Below, piece after piece: positions 43,463-50,431 of a stretch of 64,000 bases of DNA. A model generated the notes under the pieces. It had not been told where the DNA came from. It did not search any database and saw nothing but the letters and a program-made list of their open reading frames with translations. Every line of letters begins with the position of its first letter. The first letter of the stretch is position 1. Source of the DNA: Stutzerimonas stutzeri (GTDB lineage: Bacteria; Pseudomonadota; Gammaproteobacteria; Pseudomonadales; Pseudomonadaceae); the NCBI RefSeq assembly GCF_024448695.1, contig NZ_JAMOHY010000016.1, positions 1-64,000 on the forward strand, read 5' to 3'. The position numbers and the translations under genes were made by a program.

Positions 43463-43486
43463 CAGGCCGTATTCAACGGCCTGCTA
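43460..43486. terminator. Shared hairpin between convergent mscL and norD
   Basis: TAGCAGGCCG (43460-43469) pairs perfectly with CGGCCTGCTA (43477-43486). The left arm contains the mscL stop TAG, and the right arm contains the norD stop on the other strand. No long T-tract follows on either strand. Confidence 0.55.
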
Positions 43487-45520
43487 ACGCACCACCAGCC
43501 GCCTGAACCAATCCAGCAGAACGGTAGGCAAGAGTTCGGGGCGAGGCAGCAAGGCATACTGCCCCGCCCCGAAAATGCCGGGCAGGTAGCTGGCGGCCTG
43601 GCGATCAATGGTCAGGCAGAAGGTCGAAATGCCTTGCAGTGACGCTTCGGTGACAGCCTGGCGCATGTCCTCTACGCCGTAGCGTCCTTCATATTCATCC
43701 TTGTCATTCGGTTTGCCGTCCGATAGCAGCAGTAGCAGGCGGTGACTGGCGGCTTGCTGCATGAGGCTGCTACTGGCATGACGGATGGCGGCCCCGGCAC
43801 GGGTGTAGTGCTCGGGTTCCAGTGCGCTGATGCGCAGCGCCACGTCATTGCTGAAACGTTCGTCGAACCCCTTGAGCTGCCGCACGATCACCGCATCGGG
43901 GCCTTCACCGGAGAACGCCTGCACGGCATAGGACTCCCCCATGCCTTCCAGGGCAATGCAGACCAGCAGCAGCGCTTCGCGCTCCACGTCGATGATGCGC
44001 CGGTTGGCCGATATCCAGCCGTCGGTCGAGCCGCTGATGTCGATCAGCAGGGTGATGGCCAGATCCCGCTCCGCAGTGCGGCGGGTCTGGTACAGCGCGT
44101 CGGACAGCGAGCCACCGGCACGGAAGTCGGCGTAACTGTCGATATAGGCGCCCAGGTCGATTTCGTCACCATCCAGTTGCCGCCTGCGGATGACACGACG
44201 GGCGCAGAGCATCTCGAAGTGCCGCCTGATCTGGCCAAGCAGCGAGCGATGCTCCTCCAGCGTGTTATCCACCCATTGCTGGGAGCCGGGCAGATTGGGC
44301 AGCACCCTGACGATGGCGCCGGGCTGGCGGTAATGCCGGGCGCGGTAGTCCCATTCGGGATAGTGGAATCCGTGACCTTCGGCCTTGGCGCGCTTGAGCT
44401 GCATAAGCGTATTGGCGTCCGGGGGATCATCGGAGATCAGCACCTCCTTCGGCCTGCCTGGCGTTGCGACCAGCCGTGCCTCGGGCAGCTCTGAGAGCAT
44501 GTCGCCGTATTCGTCGGCGCTGATGTCCTCGTCGCGGTCCACGGGCCGGTTCATGCCCAGGGGGTCTTCGGCGTGCTGGTGCGGCTCGTCCGCCTGGACC
44601 ATGAACAGGCCTTCGTTGTCGTCATCCTCGTCTTCTTTCGCCTCGCGCACTTGCGGGCGGCGAGGGAGGCTGGCGCTGCGTGGTGCCGTGCCAGTCGGGT
44701 CGCTATCGTCTGCTGAGGACTCCTGCGTCAGCCTGGCCTTGGCACCGGTGACGGGTGCATGCAGGGTGCCGGTCCACCAGTCCCGGAGCAGCGGGGCATT
44801 GCCGCCGGAACGGTCTTCGACTGACAGTCCCAGATAGGCGAGCAGCGCTTCGGCCAGCAGCAGTGATTGCGCGGGCGATTCGCTCAGCGGGAAGCCTTCC
44901 GGGGCATTGCCGCATTGGCTGTCGAGCAGTTGCCTGAGCAGGATTTCCAGCGGTTGGCGTGCGCGGGAAAAGTCCGAAAGCGCCGGGCGCCGTTGCAGGC
45001 AGAGTTGGCGTAGCCGCTCGATGGCCGGTGCCATGCCGGGCAGCGCTTGTGCCAGCTGCTCATCCACCGCCCAGGCTTCCAGCAGCAGATAGGCGTCCGC
45101 CGGCAGCGCAGGCAGTCCGGACGGGAGCGCTTCGGCACTGCCGCGCTGGGCGCGCAGCGCCTGTTGCAGCGCCATCACCCGATAGGCTTCACCGCCGCAG
45201 TCAAGGTCCGTGAGGCCCGAATCCACGGGCAGCCACAGGCGCTGGCCATCGGTGCCAGGGAGGGGTTGATGTTGCCAGGGTGCCTGAACTTGCCGGAAGC
45301 AACGCGCCAGCAAGGTTGGCAAGGCCGGAGGCTGAGCAATTCTGATCGGGTAACTGGTGCCGGTCACTGCCGTGATCAACAGGTCCAGGCGCGGTGCAAC
45401 ATCGGTCAGCACGGCGGTCGGCGGGCCTTTGGGCAGCGGACGATAGCGTCGCCACAGCTTTTGCGCATAGATGGTCGCATGGCGCGCCGCGTCGCTGACC
45501 AGCTCTTCGGCTTCGGCCAT
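43484..45520 (-). CDS. norD: Nitric oxide reductase activation protein NorD
   Basis: A 678-residue protein, a little longer than typical NorD. The C-terminal von Willebrand A domain has a MIDAS motif (LLIDISGSTDGW, about 500) and the following LLLLLSDGKPNDKDEY. The N-terminal half is helical, and a central acidic segment (EAKEDEDDDNEGLF) separates them. NorD works with the AAA+ ATPase NorQ to insert the non-heme iron of NorB. It is the last gene of the cluster, nine bases after norQ. Confidence 0.92.
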   Translation of the reverse strand: MAEAEELVSDAARHATIYAQKLWRRYRPLPKGPPTAVLTDVAPRLDLLITAVTGTSYPIRIAQPPALPTLLARCFRQVQAPWQHQPLPGTDGQRLWLPVDSGLTDLDCGGEAYRVMALQQALRAQRGSAEALPSGLPALPADAYLLLEAWAVDEQLAQALPGMAPAIERLRQLCLQRRPALSDFSRARQPLEILLRQLLDSQCGNAPEGFPLSESPAQSLLLAEALLAYLGLSVEDRSGGNAPLLRDWWTGTLHAPVTGAKARLTQESSADDSDPTGTAPRSASLPRRPQVREAKEDEDDDNEGLFMVQADEPHQHAEDPLGMNRPVDRDEDISADEYGDMLSELPEARLVATPGRPKEVLISDDPPDANTLMQLKRAKAEGHGFHYPEWDYRARHYRQPGAIVRVLPNLPGSQQWVDNTLEEHRSLLGQIRRHFEMLCARRVIRRRQLDGDEIDLGAYIDSYADFRAGGSLSDALYQTRRTAERDLAITLLIDISGSTDGWISANRRIIDVEREALLLVCIALEGMGESYAVQAFSGEGPDAVIVRQLKGFDERFSNDVALRISALEPEHYTRAGAAIRHASSSLMQQAASHRLLLLLSDGKPNDKDEYEGRYGVEDMRQAVTEASLQGISTFCLTIDRQAASYLPGIFGAGQYALLPRPELLPTVLLDWFRRLVVR

Positions 45521-45529
45521 GGTGATCGG

Positions 45530-46351
45530 CTAGACGAAGGTGCCGTCAACCAGATCGCGCAGGGCGCAGACCATGGACGGCTCATCCGACAGGGGCGAGA
45601 CAATAGCGGCGTAACAGGCTTCGCGTATGGGGATGCCGCATGTGGTGAGTGAGCCTGCGGCGATCAGCAGACGCGTACTCGGCACTTCAGCCAGGCCCCG
45701 GTCACGCAACTGACGGATGCGTTCGGCCAGGCTGACCAACCCTCTGGCAATAGAGGGTTCGACGGCGCTTTCACGCTGCACGATCAGCGCTTCCTGTTCG
45801 GCTGCGGGAAAATCCAGGTCCATGGCGACGAAGCGCTGGCGGGTGCTGGGCTTGAGGTCCTTGAGCATGCGCTGGTAGCCGGGGTTGTAGGACACCACCA
45901 GCTGGAAGCCGGGCGCGGCAGCAATGTTCTCGCCGGTCTTGTCGATGGGCAGCGTGCGCCGGTAATCGGTCAGCGCATGCAGCACGACCACGGTGTCCTG
46001 ACGTGCTTCGACGACTTCATCCAGGTAGCAGATTGCACCCTCGCGCACGGCGCGGGTCAAGGGGCCATCCTGCCAGACGGTGCCGTTATGGCGGATCAGG
46101 TAACGTCCGATCAGGTCGCTGGCTGCCAGGTCGTCGTGACAGGGGATGGTGATCAAGGGTCGGCCAAGCCGCCAGGCCATGTGTTCGACGAAGCGGGTCT
46201 TGCCGCAGCCGGTCGGACCCTTGAGCATGACCGCCAGGCCTCGTGCATGGCACTTCTCGAACAGTGTCACTTCATTGCCGGACGGCTGATACCAGGGCTC
46301 TTCCGTTGCCGGGCGTGTAGCCAGGCTGCGTGCGGCCTGATCCATGCCCAC
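45530..46351 (-). CDS. norQ: NorQ, MoxR-type AAA+ ATPase for nitric oxide reductase
   Basis: A 273-residue AAA+ protein of the CbbQ/NirQ/NorQ group: Walker A GPTGCGKTRF near residue 43, Walker B AICYLDEVVEAR near 105, and VVSYNPGYQRMLKDLKPSTRQRF near 155. With NorD it activates nitric oxide reductase by iron insertion or remodelling. It begins one base after the norB stop and is followed closely by norD. Confidence 0.94.
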   Translation of the reverse strand: MGMDQAARSLATRPATEEPWYQPSGNEVTLFEKCHARGLAVMLKGPTGCGKTRFVEHMAWRLGRPLITIPCHDDLAASDLIGRYLIRHNGTVWQDGPLTRAVREGAICYLDEVVEARQDTVVVLHALTDYRRTLPIDKTGENIAAAPGFQLVVSYNPGYQRMLKDLKPSTRQRFVAMDLDFPAAEQEALIVQRESAVEPSIARGLVSLAERIRQLRDRGLAEVPSTRLLIAAGSLTTCGIPIREACYAAIVSPLSDEPSMVCALRDLVDGTFV

Positions 46352-46352
46352 C

Positions 46353-47729
46353 TCAGAGCGTCCGGTCGATAGCTGTGCCGCTGTTCACCGCCGCCTGTTC
46401 GTCGGTCACCGGCTCGAAACGCGGGCGGTAGCGGAAGAAGTCGAAGATATACAGCCCCACGCCCGTGGCGAAGATACTGGCGGTTGAGATCAGCATGACG
46501 AAGTGGATCTGGATCTTCAGCTGCACATCCAGATAGCCCATGCCCATGATCCGCTCCAGATACACCTGACCGATGCCGGCGGTGGCGAAGGAAAGGGTCA
46601 TGCCGAACATGCCCGCCAGCTGCAGCCAGAACGCCCAGTAGCCAATGGTGGTGCCCTGGTCGGGACGTTTGTGGGTAAGTGAGGGCAGGGCATAGCTGAT
46701 CATGGCCAGGACGATCATCGCGTAGGCGCCGTAGAAAGCGGCGTGGCCATGCATGGCGGTGATCAGGGTGCCGTGGGTCCATTTGTTGATGCTCGGCCAG
46801 GTGTGGGCCAGGCCCAGCAGGCCGGCGCCGAACAGGGTGAACACGGTGCTGCCCAGCGTCCAGTGCAGCGCCAGTATGTTGGGATGCCGCAGCCCCGAGC
46901 GGCGCATGGCGCCGTAGGCATACATGGCCATGCCGACGATGGCCAGTGGCTCCAGCGCGCTGAAGAAGCCGCCGATCGGCAGCCAGTAATAGGGGACGCC
47001 CACCCAGTAGTAATGGTGGGCGGTGCCGAGGATGCCGGCGATGAAGACCAGGCCGACAATCACGTACAGCCACTTCTCCAGCACCTCCCGGTCGGCGCCG
47101 GACAGGCGGATCAGCAGGTAGGCGAGGAAGGCACCCATGATCATCATCCACACGCCTTCGACCCACAGGTGGATGGTCCACCAGCGGTAGAAGATCGACA
47201 CCGTGTAGTTCTCGTAATGCAGCAGCGCGGGGAAGAACAGCACCGCGGAGCTGACCAGCCCCAGCAGCAACACGCCTTCGGTGGTGGTGAAGCGCCCGGA
47301 CTTCTTGATCGTCATGCCGATGTTGTAGAGGAAGATCAGCATGCAGATGACGATCACGATCTTGTGCGGCAGAGGCTGCTCCAGCAGTTTGTTGCCGGTG
47401 CCGTAGCGGAACAGGTAACCGGTGATGGCGGTCACGCCCATGGCGGTCCACAGACCGAGCTGGATATAGGCGAGCTTGGTGCTGTAGAGCTCGGTACGCG
47501 ACTCGTCGGGCACCATCCAGTAGGTTGCACCCATGAAGCCGGTGAGCACCCAGACGATCAGCAGATTGGTGTGGATCACCTTGGTGACGTCGAACGGCAG
47601 GATGTACAGCAGTGGGTCCGGCCCCAAGTATTTGGCCGCCGAAAGCAGGCCGAATACCAGTTGCAGGCCGAACAGCACCATGGCGACGGCGAAATACCAG
47701 TAAGCGACTGACTGTGATTTATAGCGCAT
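46353..47729 (-). CDS. norB: Nitric oxide reductase subunit B
   Basis: A 458-residue heme-copper-type membrane protein with 12 helices that reduces NO to N2O. Heme and FeB ligands are visible in IHTNLLIVW (residue 53 region), HLWVEGVW with the FeB His and the conserved Glu, GTAHHYYWVG and AMHGHAAFYG. It lacks the N-terminal extension of quinol-type NorZ, so it is a cytochrome c-dependent enzyme. I chose the ATG at 47729 (MRYKSQSVAYWYF), with AGGGGATTGGCC ahead; a TTG at 47735 is in frame. Confidence 0.96.
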   Translation of the reverse strand: MRYKSQSVAYWYFAVAMVLFGLQLVFGLLSAAKYLGPDPLLYILPFDVTKVIHTNLLIVWVLTGFMGATYWMVPDESRTELYSTKLAYIQLGLWTAMGVTAITGYLFRYGTGNKLLEQPLPHKIVIVICMLIFLYNIGMTIKKSGRFTTTEGVLLLGLVSSAVLFFPALLHYENYTVSIFYRWWTIHLWVEGVWMMIMGAFLAYLLIRLSGADREVLEKWLYVIVGLVFIAGILGTAHHYYWVGVPYYWLPIGGFFSALEPLAIVGMAMYAYGAMRRSGLRHPNILALHWTLGSTVFTLFGAGLLGLAHTWPSINKWTHGTLITAMHGHAAFYGAYAMIVLAMISYALPSLTHKRPDQGTTIGYWAFWLQLAGMFGMTLSFATAGIGQVYLERIMGMGYLDVQLKIQIHFVMLISTASIFATGVGLYIFDFFRYRPRFEPVTDEQAAVNSGTAIDRTL

Positions 47730-47786
47730 GGCCAATCCCCTGCAAGGTGCCGCTCCGCCGGGTGGTTGCCCGAGGCGGAACAGCTT

Positions 47787-48656
47787 TTATTTGAATGACG
47801 CCAGGTAAGCGATCAAATGATCCAGCTGCTCGGGTGTCAGTGAGTCGGCATAGGTGGTCGGCATGAAGGACGTGCCGCCCGCCGAATACATCTCGCCGGG
47901 ATACAGATAGGCGCTGGGCTCGACGATGGATTCGCGGATATAGGCTTCGACGCTGTCGGCGCTGCCCTGGTAATCCGCCGAGGCCATTATCTTCTCGGCC
48001 CGTGATGCCAGGCCGGCCAGGGTTGGCCCGGCGAGATTCACCCCGGGGGCGATCGAATGGCAGGCATGGCAGGCCGGGGATGCCGTGCGGAAAACCGCTT
48101 CGCCCAAGGCAATCGGGTCTTCGCCGCCACTGACCGGACGAGCGCCGGGTGGCAGCTGTTCGGCCGTATGGCCGGGGCCGGAGGCATCCTGCTGTGCCAG
48201 AGTCAGGTCGGTGCCGGGAATCGAGGAGCCGGTGACCAGAATCGGTCGTGGCGGCCAGCCCTGGTTATCGACGTTGGCGACCCACTCGAAAAAAGCGATC
48301 AGCCCCGCAATTTCCTCGTCCGTGAGATTCTGGTTGGGCATCAGGCGGCGGTGACGCTGCTCGTCATAGAACCTTTCCGGGTTCTTGAGAAAGGCCGTGA
48401 GGTAAGGCGCGCCGCGGTGCTGGGCGATCTTTGTCAGGTCCGGTGCGTAATAGGCGCCCTCGCCGAAAATGGTATGGCAGTTGATGCAGTTCTTCTCGTG
48501 CCAGACATCCTTGCCTCGTGTGACTTCGTGCGTGATGCTGGCGGCATTGGTCAGTTCCGGAAACTGCCGATGGCTGTCCAGCGTAAGCCCGAGAAAGGCC
48601 ACGGCTGCGATGGCAGTGGAGATGATGGCGAAGGAGCGGGTTTGTCGCTTGTTCAT
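47787..48656 (-). CDS. norC: NorC-type cytochrome c with an additional C-terminal heme domain
   Basis: A 289-residue protein. Residues 1-145 match NorC: an N-terminal membrane anchor (about 9-27), heme motif CINCHTIFGEGAYYAPDL near residue 57 and Met ligand in RLMPNQNL. Residues about 170-289 add a second class I cytochrome c domain with CHACHS near 196 and a Met in TSFMPTTY. Ordinary NorC is about 146 residues with one heme. The extra domain may replace a soluble donor. It lies 57 bases before norB. Confidence 0.9.
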   Translation of the reverse strand: MNKRQTRSFAIISTAIAAVAFLGLTLDSHRQFPELTNAASITHEVTRGKDVWHEKNCINCHTIFGEGAYYAPDLTKIAQHRGAPYLTAFLKNPERFYDEQRHRRLMPNQNLTDEEIAGLIAFFEWVANVDNQGWPPRPILVTGSSIPGTDLTLAQQDASGPGHTAEQLPPGARPVSGGEDPIALGEAVFRTASPACHACHSIAPGVNLAGPTLAGLASRAEKIMASADYQGSADSVEAYIRESIVEPSAYLYPGEMYSAGGTSFMPTTYADSLTPEQLDHLIAYLASFK

Positions 48657-48676
48657 GGGAGCGCCTCAACGGCTGG

Positions 48677-48787
48677 TCAAACGCCGATGCCTGTCCAGTA
48701 GACGATGCCGATGCCACCCGCGTAGAGAATGGCGGCGAGCATCAACCCCAGGACCACGTGACTGAGTATTCGGAACGCTTTTTCCAC
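48677..48787 (-). CDS. 36-residue single-helix membrane peptide at the head of norCB
   Basis: A GTG-started frame of 36 codons reads MEKAFRILSHVVLGLMLAAI, continuing ...YAGGIGIVYWTGIGV to a TGA. GGGAG lies nine bases before the GTG. After four charged or polar residues, about residues 9-31 form one hydrophobic helix with small residues. The stop is 20 bases upstream of norC and the frame is co-oriented, so it should be cotranscribed. It is too short for most gene finders. A third small subunit of nitric oxide reductase or an assembly peptide is possible; homology was not checked. Confidence 0.6.
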   Translation of the reverse strand: MEKAFRILSHVVLGLMLAAILYAGGIGIVYWTGIGV

Positions 48788-48840
48788 GGTCGCATTCTCC
48801 CGAGAATGGTGTGGTGCCTGGAACAGTCGAAGCGGGACTG

Positions 48841-49176
48841 TCAGGTATTGCGGGGCAGTCGCTGGATCGTGACCAGGATGACGGCGTCGGCAATTATCTG
48901 CAGCGCATGTTCGACGCTTTCGGCCAGGTACATCAGTTCATTGTCCTGAAGGGTCTGCCAGCGACTTTCTACCTGGACTTCAATGACGCCTTGAAGACAG
49001 TGGATGGTGATGGGGCCGGCCACTGCATGGCTGGGTACGACGTGACCGGCCTTGAGCACCAGGCGCATCACCTCAAGGCTCGGGGTGCTGACCAGCGCCT
49101 GTGAGCGTAGCTCGGGAAACGGATCTGCCCTGAGCAGGCTGATAGCCTCGCCGGACTGTGCATGTTTCAGTGCCAT
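48841..49176 (-). CDS. Small cupin-domain protein, first gene of the nor cluster
   Basis: A 111-residue cupin_2 type protein with no signal peptide. It has a beta-rich core with AGHVVPSHAVAGPITIHCLQG, EVQVESRWQTLQDNELMYL and SVEHALQIIADA. Two or three His fall where cupin metal ligands are expected, so it may bind iron or sense a ligand. It ends 53 bases before the 36-codon gene and reads in the same direction. I chose the ATG at 49176 (MALKHAQSGEA). A role in NO metabolism is inference from position. Confidence 0.72.
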   Translation of the reverse strand: MALKHAQSGEAISLLRADPFPELRSQALVSTPSLEVMRLVLKAGHVVPSHAVAGPITIHCLQGVIEVQVESRWQTLQDNELMYLAESVEHALQIIADAVILVTIQRLPRNT

Positions 49177-49288
49177 GGCGCTCCGACCGATACGCTTTGT
49201 TTCAATTGAGGCTAGTGAAGGGATCGGGAACTGTCCAACGACTGAGGGATGAGCGGTTCGCTCGCTGAAGCGGGGAGTGGCAGAAGGT

Positions 49289-49317
49289 GATGCCCGGCGC
49301 ATTGCACGCCGGGCATC
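49289..49317 (-). terminator. Hairpin downstream of ccpR
   Basis: GATGCCCGGCG (49289-49299) pairs perfectly with CGCCGGGCATC (49307-49317), nine bases past the ccpR stop. The T-tract on the minus strand is weak (ACCTTCTG), so efficiency is uncertain; it separates ccpR from the nor cluster. Confidence 0.6.
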
Positions 49318-49325
49318 GGAGGGGC

Positions 49326-50357
49326 TTATTCCGGCTTCGGAGTAGTCGCAGTGCTCATCGGCAGGATCGGATAGGCGACCTGCGGCTGATCACCGGTCAG
49401 GCTGTGAAGGAAGGCGGTGATGGCCTTGACTTCGTTGTCCTTGAGCTGACGGCCCAGCTGGCTGTCACCCATGATGGCCACGGCCTGCTCCAGATCCCAG
49501 ACCTCACCGCTATGGAAGTAAGGCGGCGTCAGTGCGATGTTACGCAGCGGTGCAGCACGGAACACGTACTCATCGGCGGCGGTGTTGGTCACGGCGAAGC
49601 GGCCCTTGTCGCCTTCAGGCAGTACGTCTGCGCCCGGCTTCTTGATCACGCCGAAGGGGAAGTAACCCTGGCCGCCGACGTTGACGCCGTTGTGGCAGGC
49701 GATGCAGCCGGCATCCATGAACAGGGCCAGACCTTCCTTCTGCTGGGCATCGAGCGCCTTGTCGTCACCCTTGAGGAAGCGGTCGAACGGCGAGTTAGGC
49801 GTGGTCAGGCTGACTTCAAAGGCTTCCAGCGCATAGGCCATGTTGTCGAAGCTGACCGGATCCTTGTCCTTGGGAAAGGCTTTCTTGAACTCGGTTACGT
49901 ACTCGGGAATGCTCTTGAGGGTCGCAACAACCCGGTCAGGCGTGTTGTTCATCTCAACGCTGGCCTGGACCGGACCCTTGGCCTGCTCCTGCAGGTCCTT
50001 GGCGCGGCCATCCCAGAACTGCGCGGCGTTGAACACGGCGTTGAGCACGGTTGGCGAGTTGCGCGGGCCTTTCTGCCAGCCGTGGCCGATGGAGGTGGTG
50101 ACGTTGTCGCTGCCGCCGATGCTGAGGTTGTGGCAGGTGTTGCAGCTGATCACGTGGCTGCGCGACAGGCGCGGATCGAACCACAGTTTATGGCCCAGAA
50201 TGGCCTGATCTTCGCTGACGGCATGACCACGGACTTCGGTGACCTTGTCCGGGATCGGCTTGAAAATGGAGTTGGCACGCTCGCGCAGTTCGTCGGCATG
50301 GGCGCTGCCGGCAATCATTAGGAGGCTACCGAGCAGCAGGGGCGCTGTGGATCGCAT
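49326..50357 (-). CDS. ccpR: Cytochrome c551 peroxidase
   Basis: A 343-residue diheme cytochrome c peroxidase with a signal peptide (MRSTAPLLLGSLLMIAGSAHA), high-spin heme motif CNTCH near residue 75 and low-spin heme motif CIACH near 220, and GHGWQKGPRNSPTVLNA typical of the family. It reduces hydrogen peroxide in the periplasm with electrons from cytochrome c551 or azurin. A perfect ANR/DNR site lies 61-74 bases upstream of the start, matching the known anaerobic control in P. aeruginosa. Confidence 0.95.
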   Translation of the reverse strand: MRSTAPLLLGSLLMIAGSAHADELRERANSIFKPIPDKVTEVRGHAVSEDQAILGHKLWFDPRLSRSHVISCNTCHNLSIGGSDNVTTSIGHGWQKGPRNSPTVLNAVFNAAQFWDGRAKDLQEQAKGPVQASVEMNNTPDRVVATLKSIPEYVTEFKKAFPKDKDPVSFDNMAYALEAFEVSLTTPNSPFDRFLKGDDKALDAQQKEGLALFMDAGCIACHNGVNVGGQGYFPFGVIKKPGADVLPEGDKGRFAVTNTAADEYVFRAAPLRNIALTPPYFHSGEVWDLEQAVAIMGDSQLGRQLKDNEVKAITAFLHSLTGDQPQVAYPILPMSTATTPKPE

Positions 50358-50417: not shown

Positions 50418-50431
50418 TTGATTTGCATCAA
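50418..50431. promoter_or_regulatory. ANR/DNR (FNR-type) binding site
   Basis: TTGAT-TTGC-ATCAA, a perfect match to the FNR/ANR consensus. It lies 61-74 bases upstream of the ccpR start, consistent with a site near -41.5, and about 150 bases upstream of the divergent protease gene. Confidence 0.9.

Follow-up and report, generated by a model that had tools for sequence, protein, structure and literature searches.

A putative single-helix membrane protein encoded directly upstream of norC is linked to one branch of cytochrome c-dependent nitric oxide reductases

Nitric oxide (NO) reductases produce nitrous oxide, and the cytochrome c-dependent type (cNOR) is usually described as an enzyme of two subunits. 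Other haem-copper enzymes are linked to small membrane proteins, such as CcoQ/FixQ of the cbb3 oxidase. Subunit IIa of the ba3 oxidase (CbaD/CoxIIa), which comprises 34 residues in Thermus and 41 in Aquifex, is encoded directly upstream of subunit II, is often unannotated, is hard to detect in preparations and carries a conserved tryptophan, as described in the accessible part of PMC3128077. The NO reductase of Thermus has been called heterotrimeric (NorCBH), with NorH as the third subunit of the Thermus thermophilus cNOR (Bricio et al. 2014 as cited in the accessible part of PMC5748679). Furthermore, 12 membrane helices are given for NorB and one for NorC (PMC4816578, partial text), and 14 for the quinol-dependent NO reductase (qNOR) of Achromobacter (PMC13087809, partial text). 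Here we analysed a stretch of 64,000 nucleotides from Stutzerimonas stutzeri (assembly GCF_024448695.1, contig NZ_JAMOHY010000016.1, positions 1 to 64,000), referred to as the window, in which a frame of 36 codons directly precedes norC. Judged by its sequence, this small frame is a real gene for a predicted bitopic membrane protein of an unnamed family, and conservation, purifying selection, co-occurrence and synteny strongly support its assignment as an NO reductase-linked small membrane protein.

The small gene and the signal preceding it are located as follows:

48677..48787, minus strand: small gene, predicted 36-codon single-helix membrane peptide with GTG start, TGA stop and the C-terminus WTGIGV
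48797..48801, minus strand: Shine-Dalgarno-like sequence GGGAG, read from the sequence

The translation of the 36 codons, followed by TGA, is MEKAFRILSHVVLGLMLAAILYAGGIGIVYWTGIGV. A spacer of nine bases (48788-48796) separates GGGAG from the GTG (48785-48787), and 20 bases (48657-48676) lie between the stop codon and the norC ATG, so that the coordinates confirm the frame, start and distances given by the initial annotation; the strand, which it had only stated to be that of norC, is indeed shared and is the minus strand. Its claim of one hydrophobic helix also holds. Among the 190 open reading frames of 30-45 residues in the window, the small frame has the highest hydrophobicity (2.41 versus 2.01 for the next; Kyte-Doolittle mean over 19 residues), with a value of 1.6 reached by two of the 190, and AlphaFold modelled the single chain as one helix spanning residues 2-30 with a mean predicted local distance difference test score (pLDDT) of 89.4. 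It is also the only one of these 190 frames that fits the C-terminal pattern of the family described below. The frame had been called unannotatable, and accordingly neither Pfam nor NCBIfam gave a family for the window peptide at E <= 1, and no gene is listed at its place on two plasmids that carry a homologue, in PLSDB gene tables that are incomplete. Pfam and NCBIfam scans of 44 family members likewise yielded no convincing family; weak single-member matches to PufX (Pfam, E 0.0017) and CrcB (NCBIfam, E 0.00093) were taken as chance, and CcoQ/FixQ models were absent from the weak matches. A family profile matched no PDB chain at E <= 1, qNOR chains included.

The peptide was found in 34 of 97 related genomes, and none of the 35 places contained an internal stop, a break in close relatives being what the initial annotation had named as grounds for discarding the gene. 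A second search with NorB identified some NorB in 60 of the 97 genomes; the 34 genomes with the peptide are exactly the 34 whose NorB is at least 86% identical, and no peptide match was obtained in the 37 genomes without NorB or in the 26 in which every NorB is more distant. A wider set of loci (L numbers below) was obtained by a scan with a NorC alignment, of which the best 80 of 167 relatives were used. All 80 of these loci with a matching NorC containing two CxxCH motifs contain the peptide (76 by its C-terminal pattern, four on reading), although in L086 and L087, where the contig starts inside the frame, only the last eight residues are visible. Both of two plasmid loci with a NorB more than 80% identical contain it as well. 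The distance to norC ranges from 8 to 32 bases in the 80 NorC-found and the two plasmid loci. Including the window, 81 copies are readable and represent 70 distinct peptides of 35-42 residues; a Shine-Dalgarno-like sequence of 3-6 bases precedes each of the 81, a count that is biased upwards since the script choosing the starts favours such matches (the start in L099 was corrected by hand).

Downstream of the small gene in the window, the following genes form the conserved unit:

47787..48656, minus strand: norC, 289 residues, with one N-terminal membrane helix, a NorC cytochrome c domain and a second, C-terminal cytochrome c domain (two CxxCH)
46353..47735, minus strand: norB, catalytic subunit of a divergent branch (Pfam, comparison with canonical NorB, tree)
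45530..46351, minus strand: norQ, MoxR-type AAA+ ATPase (PF08406, CbbQ/NirQ/NorQ C-terminal)
43484..45520, minus strand: norD, VWA-domain protein (PF00092)

Across the 80 loci, norB follows in 79, norQ in 79 and norD in 77; L085 ends before norB and norQ, and norD was not seen in L060, L085 and L090, of which L085 and L090 end early. Upstream, the frames scanned in ten of the 80 loci comprise eight kinds (LysR, HSP90, GGDEF/EAL, EptA, NirK-like, PLD, UvrD and glutamate synthase) and two without a family, some of them on the opposite strand. As the upstream genes vary while the nor order is kept, the small gene belongs with the nor unit. The branch is found in many bacteria of soil and water, among them Pseudomonas, Stutzerimonas, Litchfieldella, Burkholderiales, Accumulibacter, Rhodanobacter, Marinobacter and others. 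In 398 genomes of the phylum, NorC was matched in 63 but at full length in only two, both with the peptide, and the 61 with partial NorC gave no peptide match at E <= 0.001. Similarly, NorC was matched in 54 of 284 genomes of the class, with two at full length (G000 and G265), both with the peptide. The copy in G265, a divergent peptide ending in SYWGYVGV 42 bases ahead of norC, was missed by the profile and found on reading; absence by profile in distant genomes is therefore not proof of absence. Several profile matches were rejected: six of the seven matches of a narrow profile (A1) in 369 class genomes were weak and partial and lay inside frames of 201-450 residues, the real one being the window. 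Profile A3 gave four matches in the 398 phylum genomes at E <= 0.001, of which those in G000 and G015 are real and those in G653 (15 residues) and G798 (20 residues) are short and weak, and in the 284 class genomes that in G000 is real and that in G254, inside a frame of 425 residues, was rejected.

When the 70 distinct copies are aligned without gaps from the C-terminus, Trp(-6), Ile(-3) and Val(-1) are invariant, position -7 is Tyr or His and position -15 is Tyr or Trp. The readable loci were searched with the pattern W..[ILV].[VIL], and since no readable locus among the 80 failed it, the invariance of the Trp does not stem from dropped loci. Pooled over 19 close pairs, synonymous differences per site (pS) amount to 0.309 and nonsynonymous differences (pN) to 0.059, which yields a pN/pS of 0.19 and bears out the expectation of mostly synonymous change; these pairs were picked by eye before the tree was built and are not all strict sisters, and L054/L057 (pN = pS) and L063/L064 (near-equal, 0.09 vs 0.12) are exceptions. 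The median over 2219 pairs with pS of 0.15-0.70 is 0.56, but as this all-pairs set mixes deep and saturated pairs, the close pairs were used. Conservation over positions -31 to -9 is periodic and strongest at 100 degrees per residue (20,000 shuffles, p = 0.0023); one helix face, with positions -28, -25, -21, -18, -14 and -11, is conserved and the other free. Gly, Ala or Ser occupies positions -28, -18, -14 and -10 in 70, 70, 68 and 65 of the 70 copies, respectively. A conserved face together with a fixed tail has the look of a helix packed in a complex and is unexpected for a leader peptide. By the positive-inside rule, membrane topology can be read from charge; the N-terminal end is more positive than the C-terminal end in 55 of the 70 copies, equal in 14 and less positive in one, which suggests an N-in, C-out topology.

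The partner enzyme belongs to a separate branch of cNORs. The window NorB aligns with 3o0r_B over residues 3-435 of 460, and is about 46-47% identical to canonical NorB (47% to that of the same genome). All 83 branch NorBs contain HLWVEG, whose Glu is presumably the FeB ligand. In a NorB tree of 109 sequences, a quick run in which long branches including L158 and L157 were flagged, the 76 peptide-bearing rows make up one side of one branch with a support of 100 in the Shimodaira-Hasegawa-like approximate likelihood ratio test (SH-aLRT). The NorC of the branch (window and loci L038-L117) contains a second cytochrome c domain, in which a separate CxxCH and conserved Met residues are present. This probably amounts to an extra haem in a cNOR; no description of it was found in the accessible parts of the open-licence literature searched, supplements excluded. 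A structural model of NorC matched 3o0r chain C and 4xyd chain B best, with a mean pLDDT of 69.7 that supports the NorC domain match only. The C-terminal pattern of the peptide was found in none of 28 canonical norC loci within 600 bases upstream, a search that a strongly diverged peptide would escape. The initial annotation had suggested that the peptide may be an overlooked third subunit or assembly factor of NO reductase, against the background of a crystallised enzyme made of NorB and NorC only. The NO reductase-linked membrane protein stands, and a role as third subunit or assembly factor is favoured, but a place in the crystallised type does not hold, as the peptide marks a separate NorB branch instead.

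Two side observations concern the branch NorB. In 3o0r_B the region that we take to carry Glu215 in canonical numbering reads VWEL; in the window NorB the motif lies at about residues 189-202 and the site is Met. Loss of this Glu was rejected as a mark of the class, as 64 of the 83 branch NorBs retain it (WEMI), with Met in 18 and Val in one, and the change from Glu to Met or Val near the active site is one within a single branch. In many plasmid records, L118 and L119 among them, NorB is annotated as 'cbb3-type cytochrome c oxidase subunit I'. No NCBIfam model recognised the window NorB either, and surveys may thus miscount NO reductases.

We consider it fairly probable that the peptide serves one cNOR branch as a third subunit with a single helix, binding the enzyme and working like subunit IIa of the ba3 oxidase. 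The branch operon would consist of the small gene, norC, norB, norQ and norD and encode a NorC with two cytochrome c domains. The peptide would span the membrane with a cytoplasmic N-terminus and a near-invariant W-x-x-I-x-V-COOH end on the periplasmic side, one face of the helix would pack permanently on NorB and/or the NorC anchor, and the C-terminal hook would touch the periplasmic side where the NorC haem domain docks. It could thereby stabilise the complex and position NorC for electron entry. Translation, membrane insertion and an effect on the enzyme are what we infer for the peptide, as are its topology, physical binding, contact site and influence on electron transfer.

Several observations weigh against a subunit role. 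The crystallised cNORs consist of NorB and NorC only and lack an extra helix, so the chemistry does not need one. NorQ and NorD are assembly proteins encoded in the same operon, and an assembly role would fit the linkage equally well. The structure of the peptide was modelled as a single chain, which cannot reveal an interface; beyond residue 30, the tail is irregular and of low confidence. The copy in G265, which is outside the 70 aligned peptides, has Val at -3 and breaks the invariance of Ile. The 87 class-specific NorB positions were rejected as a pointer to a docking site, since they are scattered throughout the protein and are not diagnostic. Of the 34 genomes with the branch enzyme, 33 encode a canonical NorB as well (the exception, G055, is 73% complete), so the branch enzyme may not be the main NO reductase. 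In L060 the peptide, norC and norB frames were found, but the norQ match covers just 48 residues and no norD turned up in the 3 kb that follow; this cluster may be decaying or rearranged. Lastly, L158 (G307:C44) stands next to the clade, its NorB being 51% identical and its NorC carrying two CxxCH. This locus retains VWEL but lacks a peptide frame upstream, so that the second haem domain by itself does not call for the peptide. The simplest reading is that the peptide was gained once, at or after the second haem domain. L158 is a useful outgroup for timing the origin of the peptide.

The main rival is an assembly or maturation factor that binds NorC and/or NorB transiently, for instance docking the NorQD metal-insertion machine or holding the two-domain NorC while haem is attached, and is absent from the finished enzyme. 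We regard this as unlikely, though as the most serious alternative. In its favour, the small gene accompanies norQ and norD within the conserved unit. NorQD is used by canonical cNORs too (norQ stands beside canonical norC in L160), yet the 28 canonical loci are without the pattern, and in the sequences at hand this is the only point that appears to separate an assembly role from a subunit. The fixed C-terminus and the conserved face over a wide taxonomic range look more like a permanent interface, although this argues from pattern only.

Upstream of the small gene and outside the conserved unit, the window contains:

48841..49302, minus strand: cupin-like gene (PF07883, below cut-off), with a true start probably near 49176
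49326..50357, minus strand: di-haem peroxidase/MauG-like gene (PF03150)
50418..50431, strand not assigned: perfect FNR/DNR-type box TTGATTTGCATCAA, the only exact match in the window

The box is located 60 bases ahead of the peroxidase gene and possibly controls the whole cluster; exact boxes occur in some of the loci only. Peroxidase/MauG-like and cupin genes upstream of the NO reductase genes, together with an FNR/DNR-type box, recur in several Stutzerimonas loci including the window, an arrangement that makes a link between peroxidase and NO reductase possible. The gene immediately upstream of the small gene in L097 (3395-4822) encodes a multicopper oxidase with a cupredoxin domain, probably NirK, which agrees with the published pairing of nirK clade II with norCBQD. 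An extra norCBQD cluster following nirK clade II has already been described in Stutzerimonas, with no mention of the small gene in the accessible part of that source (PMC13086519). These neighbours, the peroxidase, cupin and box in Stutzerimonas and the probable NirK in L097, would fit a peptide that serves another partner, for example the upstream peroxidase or a nitrite reductase, instead of the NO reductase. We consider this improbable, since the upstream genes differ over the ten scanned loci while norC and norB stay.

Less probable still is a translational device, in which the frame is read mainly to couple or attenuate norC translation and the peptide itself has no role. The short distance to norC of 8-32 bases and the Shine-Dalgarno-like sequences would suit such a device, but the pN/pS of 0.19, the fixed C-terminus and the helix-periodic face are unexpected of a leader frame, the length of the gap varies four-fold and the stop is TAG, TAA or TGA. 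Short frames are common (190 of 30-45 residues in the window alone), but a chance frame without function is refuted by the co-occurrence, the 80 of 80 loci, the invariant C-terminus and the pN/pS, and its probability is negligible.

Given a conserved third gene in this widespread branch, its enzymes may lack a part when they are expressed or modelled. The fixed C-terminal residues and the conserved face offer direct points to test. Tiny single-helix subunits missed by annotation, a habit of the oxidases, would thereby extend to NO reductases.

Compared with the canonical cNORs (3o0r and 4xyd), NorB of the branch aligns over nearly its full length and the NorC domain is membrane-anchored here too, whereas the branch has a second NorC cytochrome c domain and the extra peptide gene. 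With respect to qNOR (NorZ), the peptide would raise the helix count of the branch enzyme to 14; however, it is predicted to run in-to-out, whereas we deduce an out-to-in orientation for the qNOR helix that follows the periplasmic domain. Tentatively, the peptide could be a separate fourteenth helix of opposite polarity that fills the slot of qNOR TM2, as IIa does for the first helix of A-type oxidase subunit II; it would have been gained once by one Beta/Gammaproteobacterial cNOR branch, with or after the second NorC haem domain, and its W-x-x-I-x-V hook would hold the two-haem NorC in an electron-accepting position, a proposal that we regard as doubtful. NorE and NorF resemble the peptide by description only, as small membrane proteins linked to haem-copper enzymes.

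NorH of Thermus is reportedly small and hydrophobic, with its gene in the norCB operon. In T. thermophilus SG0.5JP17-16, the gene after norB, taken as NorH by its position, encodes 98 residues with several hydrophobic stretches and no W-x-x-I-x-V end. It is thus longer than the peptide, lies downstream of norB and has no visible motif in common with it (two sequences read without an alignment program), and the Thermus NorB, 40% identical, falls outside the peptide clade. By analogy, NorH nevertheless shows that a third cNOR subunit is possible, and a third subunit as such has been reported before.

The closest parallel is subunit IIa of the ba3 oxidase. The partner here is NorB, not a B-type oxygen reductase, and binding is shown for IIa, whereas for the peptide we infer it. 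The Pro-X-Gly-Thr motif of IIa (accessible part of PMC3128077) contrasts with the W-x-x-I-x-V hook, and no sequence relationship was detected (no PDB chain at E <= 1), although a very diverged kinship is possible at such a length. Both enzymes nonetheless belong to the haem-copper superfamily, the peptide of 35-42 residues shares with IIa the single helix (residues 2-30) and an invariant Trp, and its gene, unlisted in two annotated records, stands directly upstream of norC, which encodes the electron-entry subunit.
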